Source of the DNA: Xestospongia bergquistia
Lineage: Eukaryota; Porifera; Demospongiae; Haplosclerida; Petrosiidae
DNA: 64,000 nt
Assembly (NCBI GenBank): GCA_963965975.1
Contig: OZ014415.1
Coordinates: forward strand, 1,741,001-1,805,000
Direction: 5' to 3'
Shown: positions 1 to 64,000 of the stretch, piece after piece
How positions within the stretch are numbered: the first letter of the stretch is position 1
Layout of the letters: every line of letters begins with the position of its first letter
Notes under the pieces: model-generated
Told to the model about the DNA's origin: nothing
The model's database searches: none
What the model saw: only the letters and a program-made list of their open reading frames with translations
Translations under genes and position numbers: made by a program

Positions 1-3000
1 CATGCAGTTCTCTCTCATCTCAACAAGAGATGCTAACCCTCCAGTCTTCACTCTCACATTCAATGTCTCCGATGGACCTCCCACTGATGTCAAGTGTACA
101 CATGGAAATAACTCATTGACCATCGATAGTGGTGACTTGTCTCGTGTGGTAGTGAATGGAACAGGATCTGTTACACAGGTGACAGTGACAGTTAGGATGA
201 GACAGGCTGGTACCTACCAGTGTACTGTCTCTAATGCCAGAGTGATTAATGGTCCTGCAGTGAATGTATATGAAATTGCTACAAATAGTAGTAGTACATC
301 AAAGCCTATAACAGGTTAGTAAATCACTGAGTAGAATAGTGTCCATGTTTTCTTTGTGATATGTAGTTGCTGGTACTCCTACTGGTTTGACTGCTACAAG
401 ACTGAACACAGGTCTTACTCATGTGCAACTCTCCTGGTCATCTGTGTCAGGAGTAGCTGGCTATGAGGTGTTCTATCAACTCAGTAATTGTAGTAGTTCT
501 GTTATGACTGCAGGAACTACCACTGACACAGTGTTGGATATAACATATGGACTAAGTTATGATGATACATATAATTTCTTTGTAGTATCATATGGCAGTG
601 AGGACAGTACAGTATTACCTAGTGATCATAGCGACAACATCACTATAGAATTATGTGAGTGAATTAAAAGTCATCTTAAAATCAAGTAATCTATTCTTTT
701 TTAGCTCTTCCCTATACAACTCTAATGTTTACTTCCACAAATACCACTATTACTATGACATGGACATCACCTTCATTTGCTCCTCAAACATATCAGGGTT
801 ATCATCAATGTCATAGACTATGTGACCTGACTATAGGTCCTACTATACTCACTAATTCATCAATCTCATCACCATATACATTTACTGGTATTGATCCTGG
901 TACTTACTGTATTGTTGGTCTTAATGGAACATATGGTATTGATCAAGTATATCTAGATACTAGAAATACCACTACACTCTCATCTGGTAAACTATAATAC
1001 ATCCTCATATTTATAATTATTATGTTGTTCCCACATTATCTATAGCACCCACTTCATCTGTCAATAATATCACTATCTCATCAGTTGAGGCAAGATCCAT
1101 GACTATCTCATGGGATGAGGTACCTTGCTCTGGACAGAATGGACCCATCACTGGTTACTTGCTCTATTACACTAAAACAACATTCAGTGACACTGTTAAC
1201 ATTACTGGAGAAAACAACAGACAATACAACCTCACAAAACTCATACCTAACACTAACTACACTGTGACAGTAATAGCATACAATGATGGTGGGACTGGAC
1301 CAACAAGTAGTGAGGTAATACAACAGACAAAAAAAGCTGGTAAGAGTATCATAATCTTTGTTAACTAACTTAATTATCATAATCATTAAAGTACATGCCT
1401 TTCTTTATTAATTCAAGTTGTTCAAGACTTTGTAATGACACCACTTAATACAACAGCAGTATGGTTGATGTGGCAAACTCCTCAAATATCTGACATACTT
1501 TATTACACAGTGTATTACAACAAATCTAGTGATACAGGAATGATGAACTTCTCTTCTAATGCTATCAATGGTGTCATTGGAGGACTAGTTCCAAATAGTG
1601 CTGAATATCAGTTCACATTATCTGTGATCATTGATAGTAATAATGGAATGCATTATGAGAACCCCCTAACACAACTGACTTCTCCTGGTATGTGCTCTAT
1701 ACTATCATAAATATACTTTTTACCTTATAAGCGATGTTGACAGCTGTCTTTAGCAGCTGTTTTCATATCAAGAAAGTGACAGTTATGTAATTAACTTATA
1801 CCTTATAAGTGATTTTAAGAGCTAACAGCTGACAAAGAAGTAACAGTGTTGTTTATAATGTTTGAAAGTATATGGTCAATTATTCAATAATAATTGTAGC
1901 AAATATATTTCAGATATACATAAGATTACTTATAGTTTCAGTCATATAGCCATACCAATTTAGTGTGTCCTTATTGATTGAATTGGTCAATATACATAAT
2001 ATTATAGTATGGTATAGTTGTTTAAACTGAAGGAGCCTGAATTATGACAAATTTAAGTAAAATTAAGAATGGGCATTACCTTGACACAATACATAATTAA
2101 ATACAATAATATTCTATATGCTCCAGTATTAAAATGATCCATATTATTAAGTATAAATTATACTCCAAGTTTGAGGTAGATATGTGATTTATACTCTGAC
2201 TACCTCAGAGCAGAGGTGTATAAACATTTAGCTAACTCAACTGAGGTGTATGACTGACATGTACCATGTTGACCAATCAGATTGCTTCAATTGCTGTATC
2301 AGATATGTAGCATCTGCTCCTTTGGATTTGTAGTATATTTGGATTTGTAGATATTTTAGGTCAGCATACACATCCCAGAGATGTGTATACTGACCTAAAA
2401 TAGAGCAATCTCATTGAATTGGCCAATTAAGACATATATAGCATAGTATAATGTATGGATATTATAACAGACTAATTAATTTTAATTATTATTTCATATA
2501 CAGGTCAACCTCCTGTTGTAGTCACAACAATGACCTATAGTCTTAGAGCTGTTGGAAAAACCTTTGCAATCGCTTTCATTATAGAGACAGTTAAAGGATT
2601 AGTACTAAATCCCATTTATTCAGTAAAAAAGATGGATGAACTCCATAACAGTGATATTCAAGACCTTGACATCACCAACATTACTCAAGAATATGATACA
2701 TTTACAAATGTAACAATAGTATTTGAAATACTAATGTTTCAAGACAGAGGAAAGTACATGTGTATAGTAGATTATACTAGTGCTGCTACAATTGGTTCTG
2801 TATCTTTTATATCACAACCAGAAATAGTGTCTGTTGAATGTAAGTATAATTCTTACATATGATTACATATAGAGAGTTATACTTTCCTATCCCATTAGAT
2901 TATATTGTACAAAGAGATATATATCTGTAATAAAAAATCCAACATTATATTAAGCTTCATTTATATATAATTTAGTCCTAATTTTTAAAGGATATATATA

Positions 3001-4333
3001 ATTTCTATTTGTCAATGTTACTTCTTTCCAATTTAGTTCCTCCACTTAAAACTAACATTACCAAAAGTTACTATGGATCAGTCCATGCTAGTACACCATT
3101 AACACAGAACTGTTCATTACAATTGGATGACTTGGTTGATATTAATACAATAGTGTCATTTCAATGGACAAAGGATGGAATGATTGTTCAAGAAGATTCT
3201 CGAGTTACTATTAGTTTTATTACTATTTCTTCATTGGAGTATGTATCCTCTCTCTCTTTTAGTCCATTGAATATAACAGATAACGGACAATATCACTGTT
3301 ATGTTTCTGTGGTACCAAATGTGACAGACAGTTATATACTCAATGCTAGTGCAAATATTACTAGTAATATTACAGTGAAAAGTAAGTTAAAAATAATCAA
3401 TACATTTAATATAAATCATGTGTTTACTTATTTAAAAGACACAAAATTAACAATATAATATAAAATGTAATCATAAATGACATGGTTAATTCTCTTTGTA
3501 TAGATATAAACACTGCAACTCAACTTCTATCTACTACTGCTATTGTAGTAAGTAGGACATCAATTGTTATGAGTGATATAATAATTGTCCATACAGGTAA
3601 CTAATAAATTAGTACTGTATACTTAAATCATCATGGTTTTTGTCTTACAGTGCCACCCACAGATGATGGTTCTAGTAGTAATGTATTAGTCATTGGTTTA
3701 GCAGTGATATTGGGTATTGCATTTATTATTATTATTTCTCTGGTTTTTATTGTCCTATGTGCTTGTATGTATATGAAAAAATCCAATACTTATGAGTTGA
3801 ATACAAAATCCAATACTGATGGACTGAATAGGTAACTAAATTAAACATTTATTGAAGAAGTCTAATGTGTTTTAATACAGAAACAAAGAGGAGGATATTC
3901 CCATGAATATAAGTCCAAGTTATGTTTTTGTTAATAAACATGCCTCATTGTTAGTTGCTTAACACTATAGCATGGTATTATCTGTCTTTCCATTTTCTTA
4001 TTGTAGTTTTCCTGCAGAAAACATATATGACAATATTTTAGATGAGTCCTCAGCAAATGCAGATTATGAAATACCAGTATCTCCATGTATAGCTTATAAT
4101 ACTACTCAATTTACATTGTTAGTTGCTTATTACAATTATTGTTTGCTATTTTTTGCCTTTCCACTGTCTTATATAGTAATGTTCCTCCAGACCTATCAAT
4201 TGACAATACTTTAGATGAGCCTTCAGCAACTGCAGAGTATGAGATACCAGTGTCTCCATGTACAGCTTATGATACTACTCAATTTATATACAAGGAATCA
4301 TTAGAAGGCTCATATGTTGACACACAACCTTAG
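1..4333 (+). CDS. Receptor A1: Ig/FN3 type I membrane protein, 5' end outside window
   Basis: Twelve exons are visible: 1-314, 367-654, 705-986, 1046-1339, 1418-1687, 2504-2839, 3037-3381, 3504-3596, 3651-3831, 3881-3949, 4007-4117 and 4177-4333. All have GT/AG borders, and the frame stays open across every junction. Order: C-terminal part of an Ig domain (YQC motif), four FN3 domains, two Ig domains (YMC and YHC motifs), a Ser/Thr-rich stalk, a transmembrane exon (VIGLAVILGIAFIIIISLVF then CACMYMKK) and a tail without a kinase or phosphatase domain. The tail has SPSYVFV, YDNI, two YEIPVSPC...AYD(N)TTQF cassettes and a final SYVDTQP. Compared with A2 and A3, one FN3 exon between 1339 and 1418 is missing. 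Role inferred: surface recognition receptor signalling through phosphotyrosine. The signal peptide and first Ig domain presumably lie upstream of base 1. Confidence 0.85.
2353..2401. repeat. Near-perfect hairpin in A1 intron
   Basis: Two 22-nt arms (2353-2374 and 2380-2401) are reverse complements with one mismatch, separated by a 5-nt loop. They sit in the 816-bp intron 1688-2503 of A1. This may be the remnant of a small palindromic element or a structured intronic RNA; nothing further is visible. Confidence 0.7.
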
Positions 4334-6440: not shown

Positions 6441-6660
6441 TTAGCTGAAGTGTACTTTTTAAATATTTAATATTAATATATTTTAACACTTGTATACATG
6501 TAGTTGCCATGTTGTCCCTCTTATATAAGTGATGCTAATTTCTTGAATCATACATTTTTATATGTCATACTTAATATATGCACTGATCAATGCCACAGAA
6601 AGAGTTTTAAATGAAAGAGGCACTTTAAGGTTCAATGGAGTATATGTAAAAGTAGTATCA

Positions 6661-6747
6661 ATATGATACCAATAGTTACTACTGATATATCAGTGACTCG
6701 ACGTCCAACTTATACTACTACAATATTCACTGAAACAGAAGTGTAGA
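6661..6747 (+). pseudogene. Relic of a family-B terminal tail exon, unit 1
   Basis: It reads IPIVTTDISVTRRPTYTTTIF followed by TETEV and a stop. It matches the last tail exon of the B genes (IPVVTTDIPV-PCPAY-TTTFTETEVKID). The CP before AY has become RP and the KID end is lost. It is a single isolated exon remnant, duplicated near 15089. It shows that a B-like gene once lay inside the A cluster. Confidence 0.6.
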
Positions 6748-7049
6748 AAGACTAAGTTAATGTCATATACATTTACTGCAATAGCTGTATAAACTATTAA
6801 GTATATTAATTGTAATGATGATATTCTTGTTTGTTAATACTATTAGCAATTTTTTGATGCTAGAATTGTATGCATGAGTAATGATAAACTTGATAGTTAT
6901 ACACTCCCAGTATAATGGATATTAAAATAAAACATGTTGAATAAAGTTAATTTCAGTCTTTGTCCTCTTACAGTGATAGGGTAGGTTGAATAGATCCCTC
7001 TTATGTCTTGTTAATGTCTTACTAGTCCTAGAGACAATGATAAGTAGTT

Positions 7050-7545
7050 GTTGTTAGAGTGATAGTTGATATCACTGTACTGTTGTTTACTGGAGCATCG
7101 TGAATTGTGATATTAACATCAAGAGGTTTACAGGTCAGATTGCATTGTTTAGAAGACAATCTACATCAGGTGTTGAAGGTTTGTACACTTGTATCATTCT
7201 TGATGACATTAGCATTAGAAATATATGCATTTTTTACTTACCTTGACTGTGGTCAGTGACTGAGTTCATGTAGTGATAAAGTGATGATATATTTCACTTC
7301 TATATAGATGGTCCTGATGCAAACTCCTCTATGCAGTTCTCTCACATTTCCACAAGAAATGATAATAAATCTCCATTCTTTATTCTCACTTCAATGTCTC
7401 TGATGTACTTGTAAAGATGGAAGTAGCCTAGTTGTTGGTGACCTCTCTCACGAAGTAGTGAATGGACCATGATCTGTTACAAAAGTGACAGTGAAAGTGT
7501 ACATAAGACAGGGTGGTGTTATCTACGTCTCCAACGACAGAGAAG
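7050..7545 (+). pseudogene. Decayed 5' Ig exons of an A-type gene upstream of A2
   Basis: The segment near 7130-7205 reads GQIALFRRQSTSGVEGLYTC then IILDD. It matches the end of the first Ig exon of A2 and A3 (GYEGLYTCIIPDENG). Near 7310-7390 the start of the second Ig exon (DGP-DA...MQFSHISTRN) follows, and near 7480-7545 its end (VYIRQGGVIYVSNDRED). Frames are broken and the conserved YQC is gone. This is the leftover 5' end of another family member. The second copy (15515-15790) has lost the middle part. Confidence 0.65.
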
Positions 7546-7651: not shown

Positions 7652-10600
7652 ATGTTGTTAAAAGTGTTATTGTCTTGTGTGTTACTACTAGTACAACTAG
7701 GAGTTGGACAAGAACCAATCAACAGACCTAGCAATGGTAAGTAGTTGTTGTTAGAGTGATCATTAATATGTACTACATAATCATAGACGTACAACTGTAT
7801 CTACCCTATGAGAATAAAATAATACCAGACTTCTCAATGATATATGAGAAGCAGGTTTATAATATTGATCGAAATATGGATGGTAGTAATGATGCCTTGT
7901 GGTGTCAAAGTGCTAATAATGGTTCTGATATTGGACTGTGGTATTATCCTAATGGTACTGAAGTACCTTTGTTTAATGGAAGCTTTTATGATAGTTCTGC
8001 ACCAAGTCCATTATTTTCTAAGAGGTTAAAAGGTCAAATTGCAATAGCTAGAAATGGAGGATTATCAGGTTATGAAGGTCTATACACCTGTATCATTCCT
8101 GATGAGAATGGAGTGAATCAAACACTAGTGGTAGGAGCATATACAAATGCTTTTTACAATGGCAATGGTTAGTGATTGAGTTTATGTAGCAATAAAGTGT
8201 TGATATATATCTAACTCATGTATAGATGGTCCAGATGCAGACTTCCCAATGCATTTCTCTCTCATTTCCACAAGATTTGCTAACCCTCCAGTCTTTAATC
8301 TCACCTTTAACGTATCTGATGGACCTCCCACTGATGTCTCTTGCATAAACCCATTAAACATCAATAGTGGTGACATATCTCGTGTGGTAGTGAATGGACC
8401 AGGATCTGTTACACAGGTGACAGTAACAATGATGATGAGACAAGCAGGTACCTATCAGTGTACTATTTCAAATGATAGAGTGTCGAATGGTCCTGATTCT
8501 GAAGGAACTGGCCCCACTGCTACAGTTAGTATTACTACATCAGAGCCTATAAAAGGTTAACAAATCACTGACTGAGTAGGATGGCATAAGACTTCTCTCT
8601 CTGTTACAGTTGCTGGTACTCCTACTGGTTTAATTGCTACCAGACTGAACACAGGTCTGTCTCATGTACAACTCTCCTGGTCATCCGTGTCAGGAATAGC
8701 TGGATATGAGGTGTTCTATCAACTGAGTAGTGGTAGTAGTTCAGTTATGAGCGCAGGAACTACCACTAACACAACATTAGATATAACATCAGGACTAAGT
8801 TATGACGATACATATGATTTCTTTATAGTATCATATGGCAGTGAGGGAAGTACAGTTTTACCTAGTGATCATAGTAATACTACTACTTTGACATTTAACA
8901 GTGAGTGCTTGAATAAAAAAGTAAAGTGGAATAATATTAACCATTTTTATTAGGTATTCCTTTTGTCACTTTCATGGTCACTTCAACTAATACCACTATT
9001 ACTATGACATGGACGCCACCTTTATTTGCTCCTCAAACATATCAAGGTTATCGTCAATGTCGTAGACTATGTGAACAGAGTTTTGGTCCTAGCAATACCT
9101 CCAATTTAACCACCTCATCATATACGCTTATTGGTATTGATCCTGGTGTTTTTTGTATTATTGCTCTAAATGGAATATATGGAAGAGAATTAGTTGAACT
9201 GGGTACTCATAATACCACTACACTCTCATCTGGTAAATTATATTAAATCCTCAAATTTACAATTATCATTTTTATATATTTACAGCACCTACTTCATCTG
9301 TCAATAATATCACTATCTCATCAGTTGAGGCAAGGTTCATGACTGTCTCGTGGGATGAGGTACCTTGCTCTGGACAGAATGGACCCATCACTGGGTACTT
9401 GCTCTATTACACTAACACAACATTCAGTGACACTGTTAACATCACTGGAGGAGACAACAGACAATACAACCTCACAACACTCACACCTTATACTAACTAC
9501 ACTGTGACAGTAATAGCATATAATGATGCTGGGACTGGACCAGCAAGTAGTGATGTAATACAACAGACAGGAGAAGCTGGTAAGAGTATGATAATATTTG
9601 TTAATTACTTAATAGTCATTATAGAACCTGGTGTGGTATCTGATCTACAGCTTAGTGGTGTTGGTATAGACTTAATTAGTGTGATGTGGAATATGCCCAC
9701 AGTACCTAATGGTGTCATTATCACATATGAGATACGTTATAGAGAGTCTAACAGTAATGGTCCATACAATATGACTAATACAACCAACACACGATACAGT
9801 ATAGGAGGACTGCTACCTTTCACTAACTATACCATTGGAGTAAGAGCATATACCAGTGTAGGACCAGGAGAATGGAATGATATATTTGCCTCAACAAGAT
9901 TAAGTTTGTTATTTAATGCGAATTCATTCACATTTCAAGTACATGTCTTTCTTTACTAATTTTAGTTGTTCAAAACTTTATAGTGACACCACTTAATATG
10001 ACAGCAGTATGGTTGATGTGGGAAACTCCTCAAATATCTGACATACTTTATTACACAGTGTATTACAACAAATCTAATGATACAGGAATGATGAACTTCT
10101 CTTCTAATGCTATCAATGGTGTCATTGTAGGACTAGCTCCTAATAGTGCTGACTATCAGTTCACAATATCTGTGACCATTGAAGTTAGTGTTGGAGTAAC
10201 TCAAGAAGGTCCCCAAACACAACCGACTACTCCTGGTATGTACTCTATTCACAATATCTACATAAACAGTTTACCTTATAAGGGTTATTGACATATACAG
10301 TTACCTTAGCACTTGTTTCTAAGATAAGGAAGCAACAATATTGTAGTAATAATTATACAATAATGAATGATGCAAATATCCTTAAGATAAATATGATGTA
10401 CTTCAGTTCCACTTACATAACTGTATCAATTATTTGTGTTATTATTGATTGAATTGGTCACTATATATATTATGAGTGCTATTTGTGTATACTGAAAGAG
10501 GCTGAATGCATTGCTAGTGCAATATTTTATTCTAATAGAGAATGTCTTATAGATTTACATAATAATCTATTCTGTGAACTATCACTAATGTATACTGTTT

Positions 10601-12343
10601 ACAGATTCTATAACATACTTATTACATATTGTTACTAAAGGATTAAAATGAATCATCTTATTAATATAGACATATTATGACAAACTGACTAATGTTGAAG
10701 CTTATTATTTCATTTGCAGGTCAACCTCCTGTTGTAGTTACAACAATGACATATAGTCCTAGAGTTGTTGGGGAAACCTTTACAATAATTTTCCTTATAG
10801 AGACAGTTGAAGGATTAGTACAAAATCCAATTTATTCAGTGAGAAAAATGGACGAACTCCATAATAGTGATATTCGAAACCTGGAAATCATCAACACTAC
10901 TCAAACATATGATGCATTTCCATATGTGACAATAGTATTTGAAATGCTAATGTTTCAAGAGAGAGGAAAGTACATGTGTGTAGTAGATTATACTAGTGCT
11001 GCTACAAATGGTTCTGTATCTTTTATATCACAACCAGAAATAGTGTCTGTTGAATGTAAGTATAGTTCTTACATATGATTACATATATAGAGTATCCTAT
11101 CCAATTAGTTTATGTTGTACAAAGAGATATATGTCTGTAGTCAATAATCCAGCATTATATGGAGCTTCATTTATATAATATAATCTAGTCCTAATGTTTA
11201 TATATTGTCCCCATTATCACCATTTCTTGTTCCAATTTAGTTCCTCCACTTGAACTTAACATTACCAAAAGTTACTATGGATCAGTCTATGCTGGTACAC
11301 CATTAACACAGAACTGTTCATTACAATTGGATGACTTAATAGATATTAATACAATAGTGTCATTTGAATGGACAAAAGATGGAATGATTGTTCAAGAAGA
11401 TTCTCGAGTTACTATTAGTTTTATTACTATTTCTTCATTGGAGTATGTATCCTCTCTCTCTTTTAATCCATTGAATATAACAGATAATGGACAATATCAC
11501 TGTTATGTTTCTGTAGTACCAAATGTGACTGACAGTTATATACTCAATGCTAGTGCAAATATTGCTAGTAATATTACAGTGAATAGTGAGTTAAAAATAA
11601 TTGGTACATTTAGTAATATAAATTATGTGATTATTTAGTTAAAAGACATAAAATTAACAATATAACATAATTGAAATCATGTATGACATGGTTAATTCTC
11701 TCTGTATAGATATAAACACTGCAACTCAACTTCTATCTACTACTGCTATTGTAGTAAGTAGGACATCAATTGTTATGAGTGATATAATAATTGTCCATAC
11801 AGGTAACTAATAAATTAGTATACTTGAATCGTCATCATGGTTTTTGTCTTACAGTGCTACCTACAGACGATGGTTCCAGTAGTAATGTATTAGTCATTGG
11901 TTTAGCAGTGATATTGGGTATTGCATTTATTATTATTATTTCTCTGGTTTGTATCGCCCTATGTGCTTGTGTGCATATAAAAAAATCCAATACTGGTGGA
12001 CTGAATGGGTAACTAAATTAAAAATTTATTGAAGAAGTCTAATGTGTTTTAATACAGAAATAGAGAGGAGGATATTCCCATGAATATAAGTCCAAGTTAT
12101 GTTTTTGTTAATAAACATGCCTCATTGTTAGTTGCTTAATGCTATAGCATGCTATTATCTGTCTTTCCATTTTCTTATAGGAGTTTTCCTGCAGAAAATA
12201 TAAATGACAATATTTTAGATGAGCCTTCACCAAATGCAAATTGTGAGATACCAGTGTCTCCAAGTATAGCTTATGATACTACTCAATTTATATACAAGGA
12301 ATCTTTAGAAGGCTCATATGCCTATGTTGTCACACAACCTTAA
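7652..12343 (+). CDS. Receptor A2: Ig/FN3 type I membrane protein, 1122 aa
   Basis: Fourteen exons: 7652-7736, 7787-8167, 8226-8555, 8610-8900, 8954-9232, 9286-9579, 9625-9903, 9966-10235, 10720-11055, 11241-11585, 11710-11802, 11855-12008, 12058-12126 and 12181-12343. The spliced length is 3369 nt, a multiple of three. The ATG was chosen because it opens a signal peptide (MLLKVLLSCVLLLVQLGVG) ending in a phase-1 donor. Approximate residues: Ig 29-155 (LWC and YTC), Ig 156-265 (VSC and YQC), five FN3 266-736, Ig 737-848, Ig 849-963, stalk 964-994, membrane exon 995-1045, tail 1046-1122. The tail has one cassette, and its two usual tyrosines are changed (INDNI and CEIPV where A1 has IYDNI and YEIPV); AYDTTQF and SYAYV remain. 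The 93-bp stalk exon is identical to that of A1. Function inferred: surface receptor, perhaps with weakened signalling. Confidence 0.88.
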
Positions 12344-12689: not shown

Positions 12690-12980
12690 GTTTTAATGCT
12701 GACACAAAGACACAACATTGTCATGTCCCTAAGTCCAAAGAAATGTATAGTTAATAAACAATCCTCTGTATTTAGAAGTTTTCCTTCAGAACCAATATAT
12801 AACAAGATCTTAGACAAGTCTCTAGCATCAGATTAGATTATACCAGTAGTTACCACTGACATACCAGTGACTCCATGTCCAGCTCATGCTACTACAACAC
12901 TCACTGAGACAGAAAGGATACCAGTAGTTACCTCTGATATATCTAGCTTATACTACTACTCACTTACAGATATACAATGA
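12690..12980 (+). pseudogene. Relic family-B-like tail exons after A2
   Basis: A cassette-like start (GTCATGTCCCTAAGTCCAAA, then SFPSEPIYNKILDKS) is followed by IPVVTTDIPVTPCPAHATTT and a second IPVVTSDIS piece. These match the B terminal exon, with an in-frame stop and the DYE motif lost. The piece is absent from the equivalent place after A1, where flanking sequence joins directly. It is either an insertion into unit 2 or a deletion from unit 1. Confidence 0.55.
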
Positions 12981-14870: not shown

Positions 14871-15088
14871 GAAGTGTACTTTTTAAATATTTAATATTAA
14901 TATATTTTAACACTTGTATACATGTAGTTGCCATGTTGTCCCTCTTATATAAGTGATGCTAATTTCTTGAATCATACATTTTTATATGTCATACTTAATA
15001 TATGCACTGATCAATGCCACAGAAAGAGTTTTAAATGAAAGAGGCACTTTAAGGTTCAATGGAGTATATGTAAAAGTAGTATCAATAT

Positions 15089-15174
15089 GATACCAATAGT
15101 TACTACTGATATATCAGTGACTCGACGTCCAACTTATACTACTACAATATTCACTGAAACAGAAGTGTAGAAAA
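15089..15174 (+). pseudogene. Relic of a family-B terminal tail exon, unit 2
   Basis: This is the second copy of the remnant at 6661-6747, with the same IPIVTTDISVTRRPTY reading and the same early stop. Both copies therefore descend from a relic already decayed before the 8-kb unit duplicated. Confidence 0.6.
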
Positions 15175-15514
15175 ACTAAGTTAATGTCATATACATTTAC
15201 TGCAATAGCTGTATAAACTATTAAGTATATTAATTGTAATGATGATATTCTTGTATGTTAATACTATTAGCAATTTTTTGATGCTAGAATTGTATGCATG
15301 AGTAATGATAAACTTGATAGTTATACACTCCCAATATAATGGATATTAAAATAAAACATGCTGAGTAAAGTTAATTTCAGTTTTTGTCTTGTCTTTGTCC
15401 TCTTACAGTGATGGTGTAGGTTGAATAGATCCCTCTTTTGTCTTGTTAATGTCTTATTAGTCCTAGAGATAATGATAAGTAGTTGTTGTTAGAGTGATAG
15501 TTGATATTACTGTA

Positions 15515-37499: not shown

Positions 37500-37563
<64 letters not shown>

Positions 37564-48164: not shown

Positions 48165-51100
48165 ATGATGAGAGGTATTGTCATCTTGGTGTTACTGTAT
48201 TGTTTCTGCAATGCTATTGTGGACATTGACAAAAGAACCAGAGGTAATATTAACACTTAATAAATATAATGATATTAAATATTTCCTAGGTATTCCTATG
48301 GATGTCTCACATGAAGGGAATTTCTTTTGTTTTGCCTTCTTAAGAAACAAAGCAAACATAGAACCTGGTTGTGGAGAAGCTCCTGGAAATCTAGGAATCT
48401 TTATAACAACACAAAACTCAAACCCAGTTGGTTATCGGATTCGATCTGGTAGTACCAGCTATATAAGGAATGGTACAGTCACAGCTGGAACAATTGTAAG
48501 GGAACAATATATGACACCAAATGTACCAGAAGTGAACACGTCAACATCATCAGGTGGTATAATTGTGGAAACAATTAATTCAAGTCAAAGAATTCAAGTG
48601 ATGGGATTTAGTGATTCTTTGAGTTCTAGTGATGGTTTTCTAGCTGTTCCAATAATACAATATAGATCAAATTTTACGTATGGTTATGCAAGTCTGACTG
48701 TGTCAGGAAAAGGTAGCATGGTAGCTGTTGTTGCATGTGATAACATAACCGAAAATGATATTAGATATTCAGCTGAAAATATTGGTTCCTTTCATGTACT
48801 AAGACCTCTTTATGTTAGTGGCAGTTCGGAATATCTTGGGAATGGAGATTTTTTTTCAACAAAAATGAGTGAATATAATACTTTAGTTTTGTATAGTTTG
48901 TCCCCATATAATTTTACAGGTTTTCGAGCTAACTCTAATCAACCAATTGGTTTCATGACTGGACATGAATGCGCAAAAATACTACTAGGTGGGAAAACCT
49001 GTGACCATATCATTGAACAGATACCTCCATCTTATACATGGGGCTATAATTTTTTTGTACCTCCACTTGAAAAAAGAAAAGGTTATCTATTTAAGGTCTG
49101 GCCAAGATATGAAGGTACTTCCTTCACAGTGTATTGCTCTAATGGAACAAATTTTAACATCTCAAACTTTCAATTTAATGAAATCAATGTAGACAACAGA
49201 CAAAGGTTTGAACTAAACAGTCAATCTTATTGTTGTATTCAGTCTGATCGACCATTACTTGTTATGCAGTATGGTTTCTCACATGAACATGATAATGACA
49301 ATAAATTTGGTGATCCTAATATGGTTTTAGTAGCTCCTATTAGCCAGTATTTGAACAAACATGTCTTTACTACTAATGTTAGTATGTGTTCTAAGGAAGA
49401 CAATAACGTCACACATCACTATATATCAGTGACTGTGTTAGCAAAGTACTTTGTTCCTAATGCAATATTACTAGATGGTATACCATTAGAACCTAATGTT
49501 AATAAATGGAGTATAATTAACTGCAGTCAAAATAATTCATGTGGTTATGGTATTAGTAAGAGAGTTAACATTGGTACACATACAGTTCAACATACAAACC
49601 CTAATGCTTTCATTAATGTTATTGTATATGGTTGGAGAATTGAGAAAGGATATGCCTATCCAGCTGGATATGGTATGAATCCTGTAGGAGGTGAGTGGTA
49701 TATAAACATTTAATCTTCTCAATAATCTTTCAACACATAGAAACATTCTACTCACTTGTTGCACTCAATGAATCATCACTAGAAAATAGTGAAGGACCAA
49801 TGATTGTTCGAGTATATCGATCAGGAGATGTCAGTCAATCATCAACTGTAAATTTAAGAACATTTACTACATGTTAGTTATGTTAAATGTTGTAGTGGAT
49901 ATTTGATTAACAGTGTTTTCTTTCCTTTCATGTTTATCTTCAGCTGGAGACAATGCAGCAACAAGTCAGTTTAAATAATAATATTGTATAATTAGTTTAA
50001 AATAATAACTAATATATCAAGAAATGATTAACCTCAGTTTCCTTTATCTAAGTGACAAAAAAGTTAACATTATCTTAACATTTTAATATTTTAATATATG
50101 ATAAAGCGATACATAGAGTTATATAAATTCAATATTATTCTACAGTTGGACCTAATGGTGACCTCATATCACAAACACAGACAGTCTTCTTTGTATCTGA
50201 TCAGACATTTGTAGATGCCTCATTTGTGTTCATGGATGATACTACACTTGAATCTGATGAAACATTTGGTGTTGAACTTGTTCCAAGAAATGATCTGACT
50301 TTTGGTATACCATCCAGTGTTATACTGACCATTATTGATAATGATGGTAAGTAATATTTTATTATCTCCACATTATTATTGTAAACATATGCAGGTATTA
50401 CTCTCTTTTTTAATCCTATCCATTATAATATTACTGAGGGAAATAACAATGTGACAGTTACATTAAGAACTCAAACTTCTAAACCACTTCCCACATCATC
50501 TTCTATTAGAATACAAGATCAATCCACAGGATCAGCTACAAGTAATAATTTATCAATTTTACAGTTAATGAATAATTAATTGTTTTCATAGGTGATGTAG
50601 ATTATATAGCTTTTGATGAAGTCATTGATCTTCAAGCTGGATCTACTGGATTCACATATAATGTCACTATTATATCAAACCCAGGCACTGAATCAACTGA
50701 AATATTTAATATTATCATGTCTTTTGTATCTGGAGACACTTTGACAGTCACTCATAATACAGCAACAATTCAAATCTTAGATGATGACGGTAAGAGATTT
50801 TTAATAATCTTAACATTATTTATGTTAGAATAATGAAACAATATATCGTTTTAAGGTAATGAATATCTTTAATTGTTTGTGCCTCCTTTGCTATATTGTA
50901 TCAATGATACAATTGCTATCTTTATTTTCTTGTTTGCTTTGAATTTTAAATAACTTTTATGTTCGACCAGCTCATTAAAAACATCATAGGTAGTTGTGAA
51001 CTTGGACTTGTTCCATCATTAGTTCTGGATAACTAGGAGGTCCTCCAGATCTAGAATACAATTAAAAAATTGATATATACTTAATTCAATTCATTATAAT

Positions 51101-53716
51101 TATTATAATATAATTAGAATTATAATCACTGGCTTATTAGTCATACAATAATGATCCTTGATTTTCTTTAAGCTGAATACCAATGCAGGAAATAGATTGT
51201 AATTACTATCAGAAGTAGATCATTTACAATCAATATTAGTCTCTGTTCATTATTATTGTTAACAGATGAAGGTATTGCAATCTTTTTTAATCCCATCCAT
51301 TATAATATTACTGAGGGAAATAACAATGTGACACTTACATTGAGAGCTAAAACTTCCAACCCACTTCCCACATTATCTTCTATTAGAATAAGAGATCAAC
51401 CCACAGGATCAGCTACAAGTAATAATTTATTAATTTTACAATTAATTTATAGTTGATTATTTTCATAGGTGGTGTAGATTATGTAGCATTTGATGAAGTC
51501 ATTGATCTTCAAGCTGGATCTACTGGGTTCAAATATAATGTCACTATCATATCAAACCCAGGCACTGAATCAACTGAAATATTTAACGTTATCATGTCTT
51601 TAGTATCTGGAGACACTTTGATAGTCACTCATAATACAGCAACAATTCAAATCTTAGATGATGACGGTAAGAGATTTTTAATAATCTTAATATGATTTAT
51701 GTTAAAATAATGAAACAATATATCATTTTATGGTAATGAGTATCTTTAATTGTTTGTGCCTCCTTTGCTATATTGTATCAATGATACAATTGCTATCTTT
51801 ATTTTCTTGTTTGCTTAAATAACTTTTGTGTTCGACCAGCTCATTAAAAAATATGATAGGTAGCTGTGAACTTGGACTTGTTCCATCATTAGTTCTGGAT
51901 AACTAGGAGGTCCTCCAGATTTAGAATACAATTAAAAAATTGTAATGATATATACTTAATTCAATTCATTATAATTATAATTACAATCACTGGCTTATTA
52001 GTCATAAAATAGTGATACTGGATTTTCTTTTAAGCTGAATACCAATGCAGGAAATAGATTGTAATTACTGTCAGAAGTAGAAGACCATTTACAATCAATA
52101 TTAGTCTCTGTTCACATCCATTCTTTCTCTTACTATCAATTATTCACAAAGAAAATAGCTTCTCCAAGAGTAGTTGTTGATATAAACTGCTGAAATAACT
52201 AGTTTTGTTTCTGAAGTGTTAAAAATGAGACCTACAAAAAACCATACTTTGCAGAGTTGATTGTCAATACATTTAAATGGAATAATCCAAGTAATCCCTA
52301 CATAGGCTCTGCTTCTGTGAACTTATATGTAATAGATAAAGATTTTAATATACTTATAGCCATCTAATGTTTGGTTAGACTTTATTTGGTCACAGTTACT
52401 GAAGACTAAGTGTAAATTGTCTATGAGACTATTAAGTGATATTATACATAGCTAAGTGTATGTTATTGTTTTAATTGCTAGTGAATAGCTTGTAGCTAAA
52501 ATGTCACATTTACAAGTTATGGAGAAAAATTAATGTGTTGTAGTAAGTCAAAAACCTTGCAGAGCATGTCCATTACATGGAGGCTAGAATTTAGGTATAG
52601 ATTGTTTGACCTCATTTCAAATTGTTAATAGGATAGTATTATAGAAAAAGTTTATTTATAATAATGTGTAAGTGCATTTTTTTGGATTTACTATTGATAA
52701 ATATTTTACTATGTCCCTATTCTCTTTCCAGTAATTTCATCTGAATCTGAATCTGATTTGTATAATGGATTGTATCTTGTAATTGTTGTGGTAATGACAG
52801 CAGTTGTTTGTTTATCTTGCAATATCTTACTTATACTGATTATCATGATTGTGTGTCTTAAGAATTATAAAAAGAATGATGACCTAAGATCACAGTAAGC
52901 AATCAAAAATATTAATACTATTTAAAATTTATTATTCCATATCAGACAAACCAATGACATGAATGTTGTCATGGCCATCAATCCAAAATATGTTGTAGTA
53001 GATAATTCAACTAACTTGTTAGTTATTGTAGTTATTATTAATTATATTAATAAGCTCTATTTATATTAAGTAATGAAGAGCCATTATATGAGACAATAAC
53101 AAATGATGAAGTACCTCCTCCAATTTATGAAAAAGCAGAGTTAGTTGATTACTAGTAATATCTATTGAATAATTATAATCATATATTATAGAAATGAAGT
53201 TCCAATATGTGATATTTTGCCAGATGAAGAGCATGACATACCTGTGGTTAATGCTGATTATGAGATACCAGTAGTTACTACTGATATAGCAGTAACTCCA
53301 TGTCCAGCTTATACTACTACAACATTCACTGAGACAGAAGTAATACCAGTAGTTACTACTGATATAGCAGTAACTCCATGTCCAGCTTATACTACTACAA
53401 CATTCACTGAGACAGAAGTGATACCAGTAGTTACAGTTACCACTGATTGTGGATATAAAGATGTTGATACTAGTCCAGAGTCTATTGTTGTTACTACACC
53501 AACTAAAGTGTTAGTTAATAGTAAATAGTACAACATAGTCAGTTATATTATACTTATAGAAGTGTTCCTGTAGAGGTACTACATGATAAGATTTTAGATG
53601 AGTCTTTAGTAGCAGCAGATTATGAGATATCAGTAGTTACTACTGATATACCAGTGGCTCCATGTCCAGCTTATGTTACTTCAACATTCACTGAAACAGA
53701 AATGAAGATAGACTAA
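48165..53716 (+). CDS. Receptor B3: IgGFc-type/Calx-beta membrane receptor without Ig or FN3, 1102 aa
   Basis: Fourteen exons: 48165-48243, 48290-49690, 49741-49872, 49944-49964, 50146-50346, 50395-50541, 50592-50789, 51266-51418, 51469-51666, 52732-52894, 52946-53017, 53071-53139, 53192-53509 and 53560-53716. The sum, 3309 nt, is in frame. Approximate residues: signal peptide (MMRGIVILVLLYCFCNA), IgGFc-binding-like domain 27-493, Calx-beta 494-611, 612-726 and 727-843, membrane helix within 844-897, tail to 1102. Exon 6 uses an acceptor shifted relative to B2 and B4 because the usual CAG has become CAT, costing two codons. The Ig and FN3 exons of B2 are absent; the 1065-bp intron 51667-52731 joins sequence like B2's post-Calx intron to its pre-membrane intron. 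The tail is the longest of the family, with YETI, PPPIYEKA, YEIPV, repeated PCPAY motifs and an extra cassette (YEISV). Confidence 0.87.
50395..51666 (+). repeat. Tandem duplication of a Calx-beta unit in B3
   Basis: The two-exon Calx-beta unit (50395-50541 plus 50592-50789) is repeated at 51266-51418 plus 51469-51666. The following introns are also alike (for example TAATGAAACAATATATC and CTAGGAGGTCCTCCAGAT occur after both). The offset between equivalent donors is 877 bp. B2 and B4 have a single copy. Confidence 0.88.
53265..53420 (+). repeat. 78-bp tandem repeat in the B3 tail exon
   Basis: Two in-frame 78-bp copies (53265-53342 and 53343-53420) each encode 26 residues, beginning IPVVTTDIAVTPCPAY and ending TETEV. 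They differ by one base at the end. A third, diverged start (IPVVTVTTD) follows. This doubles the PCPAY tyrosine site. Confidence 0.92.
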
Positions 53717-57042: not shown

Positions 57043-60000
57043 ATGATCAGAGTTATTGTCATCTTGATGTTACTGGATTGTTACTGCAATGCTATTGTGG
57101 ACATTGATAAAAGAACCAGAGGTAATATTAACACTTAATAAATATACTTTATATATTAAATATTTCCTAGGTATTCCTATGGATGTCACACATGAAGGGA
57201 ATTTCTTTTGTTTTGCCTTCATTAGAAACAAAGCAAACACAGAACCTAACACTGGCAGAGAAGCTCCTAAAAGTCTAGGAATCTTTATAACAACTCAAAA
57301 CCCAAATCCAGTGGGTTACCGAATTCGATCTGATAATACTGGCTATTCAAGAACTGGTACAGTCACAGCTGGAACAATTATAAGGGAACAATATATGACA
57401 CCAAATGTACCAGAAGTGAATATGGCAACAACTTCAGTTGGTATAATTGTGGAAACAATTAATTCAAGTCAAACAATTCAAGTGATGGGATTTAGTGATT
57501 CTTTTGGTTCTAGTGATGGTTTTCTAGCTGTTCCAATAATACAATATAGATCAAATTTTACATATAGTTATGCTAGTCTAACTGCATCAGCTCGAAGTTT
57601 CAACAGCATTGTAGCTGTAGTTGCTTGTGGTAACATAGCTCAAGATGATATTACATATTCAACTGAAAATTCATTTTTGGTAGTAAGTTCTTTTGTAAAA
57701 GGTGGATTTGCGCTTTCAAATCAAAAGACTTTTTTTTCAGCAGCAATGAGTGAATATAACACTCTTGGTTTACTAAGGGCATCCCGACGTGATATTACAG
57801 GTTTTCGAGCTATCTCTAGTCAACCAATTGGATTCATGACTGGACATGAATGTGCAGAAATACAACTAGGTGAAGATACTTGTGACCATATCATTGAACA
57901 GATACCTCCATCTTATACATGGGGCTATAACTTTTTTGTGGCTCCATTTGAAGTAAGAGCAGGTTATGTATTTAAAGTCTGGCCAAGATACAATGGTACT
58001 TCCTTCACAGTGTATTGCTCTGATGGAACAAATTTTAACATCTCAATCTTTCAATTTAATGAAATCAATGTAGACAACAGACAAAGGTTTGAACTAAACA
58101 GTCAATCTTATTGTTATATCCAGTCTGATCGACCATTACTTGTTATGCAATATGGTTTCTCACATGAACATGATAATAACCATCAGTTTGGTGATCCTAA
58201 TATGGTTTTAGTAGCTCCTATTAGCCAGTATTTGAACAAACATGTCTTTACTACTAATGTCAGTATGTATACTAGGCAAAATGATGATTTCACATCTCAC
58301 TATATATCAGTGACTGTGTTAGCAATGTACTTTGTCCCTAATGCAATATTACTAGATGGTACACCATTAGAACCTAATGTTACTAAATGGAGTATTATTA
58401 ACTGCAGTCAAAATGATCCATGTGGTTATGGCATTAGTAAGAGAGTTAACATTGGTACTCATACAGTTCAACATACAAATCCTAATGCTTCCATTAATGT
58501 TATTGTATATGGTTGGAGAATTGAAAAAGGATATGCCTATCCAGCTGGATATGGTATGAATCCTGTAGGAGGTGAGTGGTATATAAACATTTAATCTTCT
58601 CTATACTCTTTCAACACATAGAAACATTCTACTCACTTGTTGCACTCAATGAATCATCACTAGAAAATACTGAAGGACCAATGATTGTTCGAGTATATCG
58701 ATCAGGAGATGTCAGTCAATCATCAAGTTTAAACTTAAGAACATTTACTACATGTAAGTTATGTTAAATGTTGTAGTAGATATTTGATTAATAGTATTTT
58801 CTCTCATTTTATCTTTATCTTCAGATGGAGACAATGCAGCAACAAGTCAGTTTAAATAATAATTTTATATAATTGGCTTAAAAGGAATATCTAATTATTA
58901 AGAAATGATTAACCACATTTTCTATTTCTAAGTGACCACACTAGAGTTATCTATTACTTCAACATTTCAATATTTAATAATTGTTAAAGAGATTGACAGA
59001 GTTACGTAAAGTCAATATTATTCCACAGTTGGACGTAGTAGTGATCTCTTATCACAAACTCAGACAGTCTCCTTTGTATCTGATCAGACATTTGTAGATG
59101 TCTCATTTGTGTTCATGGATGATACTACACTTGAATCTGATGAAACATTTGGTGTTGAACTTGTTCCAAGAAATGATCTGACTTTTGGTATACCATCCAG
59201 TATTATACTGACCATTATTGATGATGATGGTAAGAAATATTTTATTATCTTTACATTATTATTGTAAACAGATGCAGGTATTACAATTTTTTTTAATCCC
59301 ATCCATTATAATATTACTGAGGGAAATAAGAATGTGACAGTTACATTGAGAGCTCAAACTTCCAACCCACTTCCCACATCATCTTCTATTAGAATACGAG
59401 ATCAATCCACAGGATCAGCTACAAGTAATAATTTATCAATTTTACAGTTAATAAATAGTTGATTGTTTTCATAGGTGATGTAGATTATGTAGCATTTGAT
59501 GAAGTCATTAATCTTCAAGCTGGATCTACTGGGTTCACATATAATGTCACTATCAGATCAAATCCAGTCACTGAACCAACTGAAACATTTAATGTTACTA
59601 TGTCATTTGTATCAGGAGGGAATCTGACAATCACTCATAACACAGCAAAAATTCAAATCATAGATAATGGTAAGAGACTTTTATTTATCCAAACATTACT
59701 TAATGCTGGATGGCAAAGTTCCCTGTTCAACTAGTATACTGTGATAACATAGAAGTAGCTGGGAATTGTTTGATCATAACTTCTCCAGAATATTATAAGA
59801 AAGTTGTAATGATACCTAATTCATTTCATTGTAGCTAGGCTTACAGTCACTGGTTTATCATTCATGTAATAATAATCCTGGAGCTTGAACATCAAAAAAG
59901 GAAATAGTCTATAGTTACTGCTAGAAGTAGGAAACCTTAATTAGTCTTAACTGAGTCGCAATTAAGAAGATTATCAAAGAAAGAATGAATTGAAAGATTT

Positions 60001-63000
60001 TGATCAATATATCTGTTATGCAAGGTCTGCAATAACAAATGCAATGAGTGCTTTGTACATTTTCCATAAGTGAAAACGCTTGTCTTTTTTTTCAGTATAC
60101 ATGAACAAAAGTGGTTTAAATTGGATCTTAAATGAACAGTAAACATTTAACAATATTATATAAAAAAATAAATTTCCATAAAATTTTAATTATAGTATGT
60201 TTTTGTATGGACTGAAAATGTACCAAATTCACAAAATGACCGGTTTTCTCATATTGGGTCACACACACATATGTATGTGTGTATATTATTTAATTAAGAT
60301 TTAATGTTATAAGCTTTTTATTAATTTACCAAATTATGTATCCTTATACAATTATCTTTATAAAGAATAATTTGTCATAGTCCTAACTTTTTAAATTTAT
60401 AACAGGTCAATTTGATTTATTATATAAAGAAGTAACACATATAACTTCTCTCCTGTAGTACCACCACCTACCATACAACCTATACCAGACATGAATATAA
60501 CAACTGGTTTAAATGCAACCTTTACTTGTAAAGCTACCGGATTTGGTCTTACGTTTTCTTGGGACGTGCCATTTTCTCTTACTAATAATAATGGTATTGT
60601 TATTGGTGACAATACTAGTGAATTGACTGTTGTTAATGTGACAAAACATGCCAATGGAGAATATACTTGTTATGTCACTGATTTTATTGGACAAGAAGAC
60701 ATTGCTATGGCTGAACTGATAGTTGTTGGTGAGTTTATAAATTATTGTACATTATATATTAGTATGTGGGTCTATGAAGTCTGTTAATATGTGTTAATAT
60801 CAATTATAATTATTAGTATTGTTAATTATAATAAGTAACTCATATGAGATGCTTTGTGGGTTTGTTTTGTGTTATTTTAGAAGATAATTAGTAATTGGAA
60901 TTATATTGAAATTACTTCGAGAATATTGATAGCTTACATAATTTGGAAATAAAAACAAATGGGAAATAAGTTTGTTATTTATTGTTAATATCATTTATGT
61001 TCTATATGCACAGGTCCACAGATACTTGAGTCTAATAACACTAATTCAATCGTTGTTGAGAATACTGTGAGGTTTTTGAGATGTGTTGTACAAAACAGAC
61101 ATGATGCACCAGCAAAGATGAACATAAGATGGATCAATCAAGGAAAAGTTATAAATGTATTAGAACAACCTTCATTTATCATTGACACAACAATGGAAGA
61201 CAATAATAGGATAGTGACGAGCATATTAACATTTAATCCTGTTAATTATAAGATGTTCGATTTACATGCTTTGTATATAAATCGTTTCCAATGTGAGGCA
61301 TCCATTGGTAATTATATTTTTGATGCTGTCAGGAACAGAGGTGCTGTATTAACTCTAAACTGTAAGTTAATATTATAGAATATAAATTGGTCATAACAAG
61401 TGTCTATAGTGTTTAGATCTACATATTGAATGCTCATGATATCAATGTTATTTTTTTTTCCTTTAGTTATTCCCAAATTTCTAACACAACCACCAAGTAC
61501 TGTTAGAATCAACCTTACTGATACTGAAGAACTAGAGTGTGGAGGAACTGGAGAACCTGAATTCACCATAACATTTTATAGACACTTTGATAATGGATCA
61601 TCAGTAGTTATATATGAAAAAAAAGATGATTTAGCGAAGACAACAATCAATAATGCTAACTATAATGATGCTGGTAATTACAGTTGTCAGATGTCTAATT
61701 ATGTCGGTGCAAATGTGTCAAATTTTACTATTATAATACAAGGTAAGCCAGTGGTTTTATTATAAAAGTTTAAACAGTCATCTTTGTTTTAGGTCCACCC
61801 GATCAAGTTGATCATACCAGTATCAATGTCACTGTCATTTCCATTTTTCAAGTTCTTATCACTTGGATTCGTCCATTTAACAACTTTGCTCCTTCTACTT
61901 CTCAAACATATCATGTGTATTATGAAGAGAGGAATACTGGAGTTTCAACAGGCACTAATCAAAGCTCTGAGACAACTTCTGTACGCTTAGATCTACCAGT
62001 TAACACAAACTATTTACTAAAAGTTGTCAGTTGTAATATAGTAGGCTGTGGACCAACAACTCAGTATGTCTCATTTACAACAATTACACAAGGTAAGAAC
62101 AATAAAGGATATTATTATATATATCCTAATATAATTATAATTGTTTTACATTGACTATTGTAGAGTATGTCATAGTTTTATTACAGACTATTTTGTCTAT
62201 ATGTCCCTTTATAAGTATGACGTTCAAACGAGTCATAAATACTATGTAGATAAGCCCATTAGTATAATTTTTGTTTTGAAATGAGTTTTATAAGTTTAAT
62301 TTAGCATGTATAATATATAAATATAATATGTATGTGTGTGTATGTTAATGGAGTGTAAGGAGTGTATGTATTAGATATCATTGTTGCTTAGATTTAAAAC
62401 TAGTAATCAAACTGAATTAACTAAACACATTAATTGAAGAGGAAAACATTCATTATGACAAAATGATCCTCTTTGCTTCAATTTTGATTACTGTTTGTTT
62501 ATATTTTAGCAATGGCCAAATTAAGAAATGTCTACATACCTTTTACGCTCATCAACTCCTCATCAATATTCATTAGTTGGGAACTTCCTCCTTTGGCGAT
62601 CAATTCAGTTGGTAAAAAACCAACTATTGGGAATTTTGAAGTGTCTTATAGAGCTATTAGAACTGTTGTTACAGAAACAAAATCAATTAATTCAAATCAG
62701 TTTAATATAACTATTATTGATCTGAAACCAGATACTGAATATGAAGTTGTTGTAGGAGTTAAGTATGAAGATCCCCCCAATTTTTCTGGAGAAAATGTAA
62801 CATTTCCAAGTATTAGAACAAGACCACAAAGTAAGTTATTAGTTCAAAGAAACTTTAAATGAATACTATAAGCTATTATATACCATAGCTATCACATATG
62901 TATTTCAAACTTTTTGTCTTTAAATTTCATTTTTTTATTAAATCTTTCTTTACACAGACAATTTTCCTGACAAAAATACAAATATTGATATTGATGACAG

Positions 63001-64000
63001 ACAAAATCCTCGTGTGTTAGTCACATGGGATAAACTTAAGGAAGAGGATGGTGCAGAATATTTACAATCTTATAGTGTTATTGTTACTATTAAGGTAAGG
63101 GGGTCAAATGGAAACATACAAAAAAGACAAATTAATGAAAAAAAGAGAACTTTTGATGTGGATAAAACTAGAAACACATTTCAATATAACGACACTGAAC
63201 CATTTATGTCATATACATTTCAAGTGAATGCAAAATTGTTGGTAAATGGAGAAGAACGAATAGTACCTATTACACAACCTAATACTGTTGTATCAGGAGA
63301 AGCAGGTAAACATTTTTCTATATACTAATATAAACGTAATGTATGGACAATTATATATGTAGTATTAAAATACTTCTAATATTTTAAAGCATCTACATTA
63401 AGGGACTATAAGAATAACATTGATGACTCGTTTTGATTTTCATTTGTAGCTCCTGCTACTCCTCGAAATCTAAAAGCAACTGAAACCAACTTCACTGTCA
63501 TTGAATTGAGTTGGGAAAGACCTAGTCCTTCCAATGGAATTATTACCAATTATACAGTATGTAAACAACTATGCCACTTTTAACCACACATAGTTAAGCA
63601 CATACATAATCAATATAATATATTACACATATTGATTTATTAAGCTACCATTGATATTATTTTACTACTACTTTTTTCAAGATATATTGGGGTTTTAGTT
63701 GTCAACAAAAGAGAGTAATTGTGTTAACTTCTCAAATGTTATCATATCGATTTACTTCACTTACTGGAGATATGTCATATTCATTCTCAATCAGAGCAGC
63801 TACTAATGGAGGAATAGGAGAGTATAATAACATAACAGTCACTACTCATGCAGGGGGTAAAAATCAGTAGAGTTATGGCTATAATATAATTATTATATAA
63901 TAGATTTCAACTTGCCTTATGATAATTATATATGTGTTGAAAATATATTTAATTTTTTTTGTTGGATTTATCTGTGTTTAAGTTCACATTTTTGTTTAAT
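57043..64000 (+). CDS. Receptor B4: IgGFc-type/Calx-beta/Ig/FN3 receptor, 3' end outside window
   Basis: Fifteen exons are visible: 57043-57121, 57171-58571, 58622-58753, 58825-58845, 59029-59229, 59272-59424, 59475-59669, 60459-60728, 61014-61361, 61467-61742, 61793-62092, 62510-62830, 62958-63305, 63450-63556 and 63682-63856. The next acceptor would lie at or just past 64000. All phases agree with B2. Order: signal peptide (MIRVIVILMLLDCYCNA), IgGFc-binding-like domain of 467 residues, two Calx-beta, three Ig (YTCYV, FQCEA and YSCQM motifs), four FN3. The triplicated Ig type of B2 is absent: the intron 59670-60458 leads straight to the homologue of B2's fourth Ig exon. The four last exons are very close to B2. 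The juxtamembrane, membrane and tail exons are expected beyond the window. Confidence 0.86.

Follow-up and report, generated by a model that had tools for sequence, protein, structure and literature searches.

Two ectodomain families of a demosponge receptor cluster occur both with tyrosine-rich tails and as receptor tyrosine phosphatases

The window analysed here (64,000 nt, positions 1741001-1805000 of contig OZ014415.1 of the sponge Xestospongia bergquistia; this contig is called C5 below and the others are numbered likewise) carries a cluster of receptor genes, all on the + strand, that belong to two types, A and B. The A-type genes have an N-terminal immunoglobulin (Ig) exon followed by Ig, fibronectin type III (FN3) and Ig modules, a transmembrane (TM) exon and a tyrosine-rich tail, and Pfam recognizes both Ig and FN3 domains in their ectodomains. 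The B-type genes begin with an IgGFc-binding head and Calx-beta-like exons; in B2 and B4, Ig and FN3 exons come next. Gene models and exon matches show that each of these ectodomain families exists in two predicted forms, one with a tail of tyrosine cassettes free of catalytic domains and the other as a receptor protein tyrosine phosphatase (RPTP). The best reading of the window is as part of a large family of demosponge recognition receptors, with diversified Ig/FN3 heads on interchangeable signalling ends. We consider it probable, although not by far, that the two forms make up a paired system with shared heads, in which the tyrosine-tailed receptors would serve as kinase substrates and docks for SH2 proteins and phosphatases with similar heads would oppose them.

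The heads of the A type that were sampled in other clusters have differing tails in the gene models, including cassettes with SLYEIADQEP (C5:1.58 Mb), a short tail (C8), other tyrosine motifs (C2) and, in a C1 subfamily that is about 50% identical, a tail of NPYALPVYAEV repeats. The head sampled at C5:0.73 Mb runs into a protein tyrosine phosphatase (PTP) domain. A search with PF00102 revealed that PTP exons alternate with A heads at C5:0.62-0.76 Mb, about 1 Mb from the window, where listed PTP exons come between each of the 11 complete heads and the complete head that follows it (the count leaves out two partial head matches, at 636546 and 666263) and four of the head-PTP pairs have gene models. 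For the 87 other head matches on C5 a listed PTP exon lies within 15 kb in none, which is a result about the matches listed, because 150 of the 405 PTP candidates were scored. Similarly, no listed kinase match was found inside the A-head intervals examined (129 of 1201 candidates scored). Other groups of PTP exons were seen at C9:1.99-2.15 Mb, C10:0.97-1.25 Mb and C2:6.83-6.93 Mb.

The RPTP at C5:733900-745600 (minus strand) is a twin of the window gene A3. It contains every ectodomain exon of A3 in the same order, plus two extra FN3 exons, and continues with a TM segment and tandem PTP domains, D1 (PF00102, E 1.8e-29) and D2 (5.4e-8); the solved structures nearest to D1 are those of PTP-sigma and LAR. 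The synonymous divergence (dS) between A3 and this RPTP ranges exon by exon from 0.07 to 0.36, and at the DNA level the two are 83-86% identical. A tyrosine-tailed relative of A3 at C5:6.51 Mb aligns to the same RPTP in one block of 4,500 columns that is 91.1% identical, introns included. Both this block and the A3 alignment end at position 7069 of the RPTP, 6 nt after the end of its last FN3 exon (7063), i.e. the similarity between the tyrosine-tailed and RPTP forms of the A type stops in the intron that follows that exon.

The RPTP twin of the B type, pieced together from separate stretches, is collinear on the + strand at C5:602.9-616.2 kb. The B exon F5b has here its sole match outside the B cluster (C5:612921, 75%), accompanied by FN3-3 (C5:611597, 86%), Ig4 (609668, 89%) and B-type Ig exons at C5:602885-608532, five of them at 74-82% and three at 31-47%. 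The DNA of the twin (stretch L043) is still alike in F5b (83%) and in the juxtamembrane exon (76%), and downstream of the latter come a differing TM, an I-set Ig domain (7e-15) and PTP exons (7.8e-15, 7.2e-6 and 2.1e-11), so that the similarity stops in the intron just before the TM exon. Since no IgGFc-binding head is among the matches listed there (91 of 211 candidates scored), this twin may share with B2 and B4 nothing but the Ig/FN3 part. In the B twin and in three shorter A-type RPTPs, TM and PTP are separated by an I-set Ig (Pfam run on two: 3.6e-16 for L031, reverse strand, 2803-3257, and 7e-15 for L043:984-1265). On inspection of the sequences read, a residue other than cysteine takes the place of the second canonical Ig cysteine, and from the topology of the protein this domain should be cytosolic.

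The earlier note had described the tails of the window as devoid of kinase and phosphatase. Along these lines, a six-frame motif scan of 244 kb around the window (C5:1661001-1905000, the stretch in which the exon matches of the cluster were also counted) detected no signature of PTP, kinase or SH2. Four RPTP loci served as control for the PTP motifs: WPD was recovered in all four and the catalytic-loop motif in one, an intron splitting it in the other three. The motifs for kinase and SH2 were used without control. The description holds for these 244 kb and was incomplete for the family, given that both ectodomains adjoin PTP exons elsewhere on C5. The known receptors that come to mind are the LAR or type IIa RPTPs, which have in common with this family an ectodomain of Ig and FN3, a single TM and, in the A3 twin, the tandem D1-D2 arrangement. 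Unlike them, the window genes are without phosphatase in the 244-kb motif scan, and the other RPTP members have the cytoplasmic I-set Ig and one PTP domain modelled in the stretches read. From sponge receptor tyrosine kinases the window genes differ in that no kinase signature appeared in the 244 kb by the simple scan without positive control.

The tail cassettes themselves are common to both head families, since a profile built from 12 A cassettes finds six of seven B-like cassettes, with E-values from 1.4e-12 to 3.4e-6 (the best of 700 shuffles reached 0.31); the one missed belongs to a giant A relative at 1903 kb. At the level of sequence this shows the A and B cassettes as homologous on heads that are unrelated. 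Motifs were counted in 12 tails (seven from the window genes and five others) and compared with 2000 shuffles, which overstate independence because the tails are mutually related. Yxx[ILVM] appeared 37 times versus 21.1 +/- 4.0 in the shuffled tails, none of which reached 37, and this bears out the many YxxI/L-type motifs reported for the window before. The motif [ADEST]YE[IL]P was found 11 times with about 0 expected. Possible readers of tail phosphotyrosines are encoded elsewhere in the genome. Intact frames with the SHP-like architecture SH2-SH2-PTP number seven among those listed, six on C3 and one on C7 (C3:916188-917681; C3:1265457-1283528; C7:8318067-8319560), plus one with a TGA, and seven is an unusually large set for such proteins. 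Frames that combine SH2 and kinase number 12 (11 on C6 and one on C14); both counts rest on adjacent listed matches that report the same open-frame length. Ten of the SH2-kinase frames lie within 76 kb (C6:1621395-1697212). Proteins of both kinds are possible candidates for reading the tails.

A way to assess whether the heads diversify is to compare the same exon among paralogues. The site models M1a and M2a were applied to sets of 11 to 14 genes, tyrosine-tailed and RPTP alike, which are paralogues and not alleles, after excluding matches that covered less than 80% of the exon or were less than 50% identical, second copies of an exon within one gene and the stop-bearing FN3-4 exon of the second C8 gene. 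Twice the log-likelihood difference (2dlnL) was 47.0 for the N-terminal Ig, 28.7 for FN3-2, 19.3 for Ig2, 16.6 for FN3-1 and 13.1 for FN3-4, all of them A exons, and with gap columns removed it was 34.7 for the N-terminal Ig and 35.9 for FN3-2. Null simulations of the N-terminal Ig gave maxima of 4.1 without recombination (12 simulations) and 9.7 with recombination (12 simulations, two trees), and gene conversion alone was rejected for this exon (9.7 versus 34.7). The B head gave a 2dlnL of 17.2, and its residues around 170-213 form a variable stretch. Positive selection in the ectodomains, which had been suggested as a check, is in this way favoured by site models among paralogues for A exons and the B head.

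The exons of single genes also have conflicting histories. Approximately unbiased (AU) tests of 12 genes and five exons reject 18 of 20 cross-exon comparisons (p < 0.01), the N-terminal Ig data accepting the trees of Ig2 (0.085) and FN3-1 (0.188), and the RPTP heads form no clade in three of the five exon trees. Together, these sequence comparisons favour a diversification of the paralogue heads by positive selection and module shuffling, and the idea of diversifying Ig superfamily (IgSF) receptors found agreement in both the site-model tests and the conflicting exon trees. This combination is what a complex of recognition receptors would show, and it points to a putative role in self/non-self recognition, be it of conspecifics or of microbes.

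The same figures could be read as ordinary adhesion receptors expanding by drift, with relaxed constraint and gene conversion mimicking diversification. The mean pairwise dN/dS of 0.41-0.90 in 14 of 16 exons, module trees that conflict as gene conversion would make them and the presence of relics would all fit. We regard it as improbable nevertheless, since M2a for the N-terminal Ig is far above the nulls with and without recombination, sites of the constrained class (w0 0.12-0.25) amount to 52-70% in five of six A exons (only 31% in FN3-3) and the PTP exons of three RPTPs have dN/dS of 0.21-0.32. Within the RPTPs, the head exons of two of them (P690 versus P733) have dN/dS of 0.72-1.60 and the I-set Ig 0.50-0.70, so the phosphatase exons are under more constraint than the heads.

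In the paired system that we favour, binding of a ligand by the head would lead Src-type kinases to phosphorylate the Yxx[hydrophobic] and YEIP motifs, on which SH2 proteins such as the SHP-like phosphatases would then dock. The RPTP twins, which may see the same or related ligands because their heads are similar, would remove the phosphate, and the ratio of substrate receptor to phosphatase would fix the threshold of the response, much as paired receptors of vertebrates do. What the anatomy supports is a set of opposed phosphotyrosine ends; that the tails are phosphorylated and dock SH2 proteins, that ligands are shared and that the receptors act in recognition is what we infer. With the vertebrate KIR, LILR and SIRP this family would share, in anatomy only, related ectodomains on opposed signalling ends, clustering and fast evolution; it differs in that one partner is itself a phosphatase and in the tail motifs discussed below.

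Several observations weigh against this reading. The 12 tails contain no strict immunoreceptor tyrosine-based inhibitory motif (ITIM; 5.3 expected by shuffles) and no strict activation motif (ITAM; 0.5 expected), for which reason an ITIM/ITAM system was rejected and the ITIM/ITAM likeness proposed in the earlier note did not survive. YxN (6 versus 7.3 expected) is not enriched, and YxxP (13 versus 8.4 +/- 2.6, with 125 of 2000 shuffles reaching 13) not clearly so. That the ligand is shared is an assumption, because heads on the two types of tail resemble each other without being identical. Regarding selection, FN3-3 has no significant signal (2dlnL 2.8), the null simulations cover one exon, the N-terminal Ig, and mean pairwise dN/dS is below 1 in each of 16 exons (0.04-0.90). 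Finally, two of the five exon trees group the RPTP heads, if weakly (31 and 62), and head exchange between the forms is therefore not supported for these two exons.

The absence of strict ITIM and ITAM also means that the tails could be endocytic (Yxx-hydrophobic, PPxY) and not docking. In that case they would sort the proteins for endocytosis, and the latter would act in clearance or as decoys of the RPTPs. The enrichment of Yxx[ILVM], two PPxY motifs (0.7 expected, and 313 of 2000 shuffles reach two) and the lack of a catalytic signature in the tails could be invoked for this. We give it little credence, as the recurrent [ADEST]YE[IL]P is not known to be needed for AP-2 binding and the tandem multiplication of cassettes would suit multi-site docking better.

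The receptors of the window belong to a much larger family. For the N-terminal exon of the A type at least 150 matches were scored, 100 of them on C5 and the rest on C8, C2, C1, C3, C14 and C9, a lower bound with 150 of 190 candidates scored, so that a single isolated locus was rejected. Nor is the window a compact equivalent of an Alr cluster, being a small part of this large and dispersed family. Among the matches listed (91 of 211 candidates scored), the B head has 10 full-length copies at C5:1.773-1.861 Mb and one on C12 (C12:6855036-6856433), the latter 90% identical to B4 and perhaps the product of a recent transposition or translocation to another chromosome. A further copy of the B head, at C5:1839293-1840697, is broken and contains stops, and on C1, C13 and other contigs there are many remoter IgGFc_binding-like frames, mostly 26-35% identical and often closely spaced. 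Among the giant A-type relatives we observed three tandem 2.5-kb units of several Ig exons at C5:1720435-1727955, mutually 92-96% identical, and like arrays with periods of 2508 and 2503 near C5:2.53-2.54 Mb and 2.56-2.57 Mb, respectively; the Ig arrays of the larger A relatives are homogenised. A receptor of an A subfamily at C5:1.04 Mb (L033:1309-2485) has a long stretch of SSVNEIST repeats after an FN3 exon. A tblastn search for relatives in other sponges by way of contaminated assemblies (genome_contigs, 21 pattern matches; viral_contigs, 13) found none.

A strict allorecognition complex, in which the heads would bind each other between individuals and decide on fusion or rejection, is suggested by the clustering of diversifying IgSF membrane proteins with relics. 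According to PMC12065747, the candidates of Botryllus and Hydractinia are receptors with tyrosine tails that carry ITIM/ITAM-type motifs, and those put forward for sponges, cnidarians and ascidians are said not to be conserved among these groups. The A head, moreover, has a predicted Ig fold. The model of its N-terminal Ig exon by AlphaFold (mean pLDDT 91.6) has NCAM Ig1 as best PDB match with Foldseek (E 1.9e-4), at a modest TM-score of 0.49, and a profile of the head versus PDB gave nothing below E 0.07, its best match also being NCAM. Still, we find such a complex rather unlikely given the tails without strict ITIM or ITAM and a number and spread of A heads, over several chromosomes, that exceed those of a single histocompatibility locus. 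In a sponge graft study (PMC5450542), the words immunoglobulin and tyrosine do not appear in the main text. The FcoR proteins of Botryllus are likewise IgSF type I receptors with tyrosine tails that include the core YxxI/L/V; unlike the tails studied here, theirs can encode a canonical ITIM or hemITAM (PMC12065747). The strict hemITAM is absent from the two tails inspected for it (B1 and B2), and a loose form survives in these two alone. Hydractinia Alr, the comparison made by the earlier note, is similar in that IgSF type I membrane proteins stand in a tandem cluster together with relics. Set beside Alr, the window family is different in being FN3-rich, larger and dispersed, with RPTP twins and no strict ITIM/ITAM, and the twins found for both window ectodomains favour a paired phosphotyrosine design over Alr-like genes. 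A further reading, which we hold to be doubtful, is a histocompatibility-type complex on C5 that issues its recognition heads in two opposed forms, tyrosine-tailed kinase substrate and receptor phosphatase, and recombines heads and tails by way of introns of matching phase. Under that reading the pairing of phosphatase and substrate would be a form of non-self discrimination of early animals independent of ITIM and ITAM.

Heads that diversify against bacteria, on tails that trigger uptake or tolerance, would make the proteins receptors for microbes or symbionts. We take this possibility about as seriously as strict allorecognition, short of finding it probable. Sponges have large microbe-sensing families, NLR and SRCR (PMC8242945), the N-terminal domains are positively selected and Yxx-hydrophobic motifs might suit endocytosis too. 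Against it, the very long Ig/FN3 ectodomains and the RPTP twins would resemble cell-cell adhesion receptors more than lectin-like sensors.

In the window, gene models, exon matches, signal peptides and stop codons bear out the earlier note in its count of three A-type and four B-type members, relics included. A1 (1..4333, +; gene model, exon matches and stop codon) is a tyrosine-tailed receptor whose 5' exons fall just outside the window, the N-terminal Ig exon at C5:1740550-1740921, and has no exon match for FN3-4. A2 (7652..12343, +; signal peptide at 7652-7736) is complete, with the order Ig-Ig-5 FN3-Ig-Ig-TM-tail; Pfam does not recognize the respective domain in four of its exons, namely the N-terminal Ig and the second Ig, FN3-1 and Ig3, the last three of which are named by position. 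The long receptor A3 (15895..23438, +; signal peptide at 15895-15994) has extra Ig5-7 and FN3 6-8, an example, like B3 below, of differences by whole domains. Its tail cassettes (22700..23385, +) are a tandem array of a unit of about 168 bp (4.0 copies and 81% matches by Tandem Repeats Finder, TRF), the four cassettes having YEIPV in three and NKIAV in one, and AYDTTQF in all. A relic tail cassette with broken A-type head exons lies between A1 and A2 (6660..7541, +), and another with one broken head exon between A2 and A3 (15085..15665, +). About 500 bp 3' of the A2 stop there is a B-like tail cassette (12838..12980, +) with no AG directly before it, which is either a relic or an alternative terminal exon.

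Of the B genes, B1 (25593..29429, +; gene model, exon matches and stop codons) is a relic in which no IgGFc-binding head exon was found and the last ectodomain exon has a stop codon, an in-frame TAG within C5:1768927-1769187, while TM and tail are still open. The gene models of B2 and B3 are complete. B2 (32072..43089, +) comprises a signal peptide (32072-32150), the IgGFc-binding head (32199-33602), Calx-beta, Ig and FN3 exons, TM and tail. A second set of TM and tail 3' of it (44410..45052, +), with AG/GT splice borders and one tail motif reading SPSS in place of SPSY, is possibly an alternative cytoplasmic end of B2. B3 (48165..53716, +) has the IgGFc-binding head, Calx-beta exons, TM and a long tail, with no match to Ig or FN3 exons between the Calx-beta exons and the TM, and its tail exon contains a 78-bp tandem repeat (53265..53434, +; 2.2 copies, 98% matches). 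B4 (57043..64000, +) is cut by the end of the window, its TM and tail running on to C5:1807071.

The head of B4 matches PF17517 (IgGFc_binding) at E 1.1e-36 (127 bits versus a cut-off of 25.6, profile positions 59-297 of 297); the profile was run on this head, and that of B2 is 82% identical to it. A search of the B head versus PDB had no match up to E 0.1, and its AlphaFold model, with a mean pLDDT of 40, was not used for fold searches. The Calx-beta matches of B exons (E 0.0023 and 8.7e-6) are both under the curated cut-off of Pfam, and two other exons of this region are without match. Sponge aggregation factors are characterized by VWD and Wreath domains. The Calx-beta-like exons, at the level of these sub-cut-off matches, are what the B type may have in common with them; it differs in that it is predicted to be a membrane receptor, has an IgGFc-binding head and is without VWD match in the B exons scanned (the F5a, juxtamembrane, t1, t2 and t4 exons were outside the scan).

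The content of the window was derived from a gene finder, a signal-peptide search, stop codons, Pfam, exon matches and TRF. The gene finder used fixed splice models and penalties, after a self-trained version had been discarded for predicting too many short exons. It still fuses neighbouring genes and adds doubtful exons, for which reason gene ends were taken from signal peptides and stop codons. The single orientation described before is found in 320 of 323 exon matches of the 244 kb, the three exceptions, on the minus strand, being pieces of exons c1 and c2 in the Calx-beta region of the B type. Intron phases also came out as described, 1-1 in 65 of 77 ectodomain and 2-2 in 14 of 18 tail exon matches (matches in the window with a modelled exon, 11 others being excluded). 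The assembly has 146,460,797 bases in 21 contigs. The first 10 kb of C21 (18,997 bp, genetic code 4) contain, by eye, cox1, S, D, C, nad1, L, I, Y, M, M and nad2, which we take to be the demosponge mitochondrial order and which is in line with the early animal guessed from the window.

Among the papers listed in the literature searches, no title or abstract opening gives an account of sponge RPTPs whose ectodomains are common to tyrosine-tailed receptors. If the paired reading is true, the pairing of phosphatase and substrate receptor would be an alternative way to build a threshold, with defined pairs of twins open to direct testing. It would also mean that effectors are exchanged by exon shuffling between genes, one pair of which is still 91% identical over 4.5 kb including the introns.

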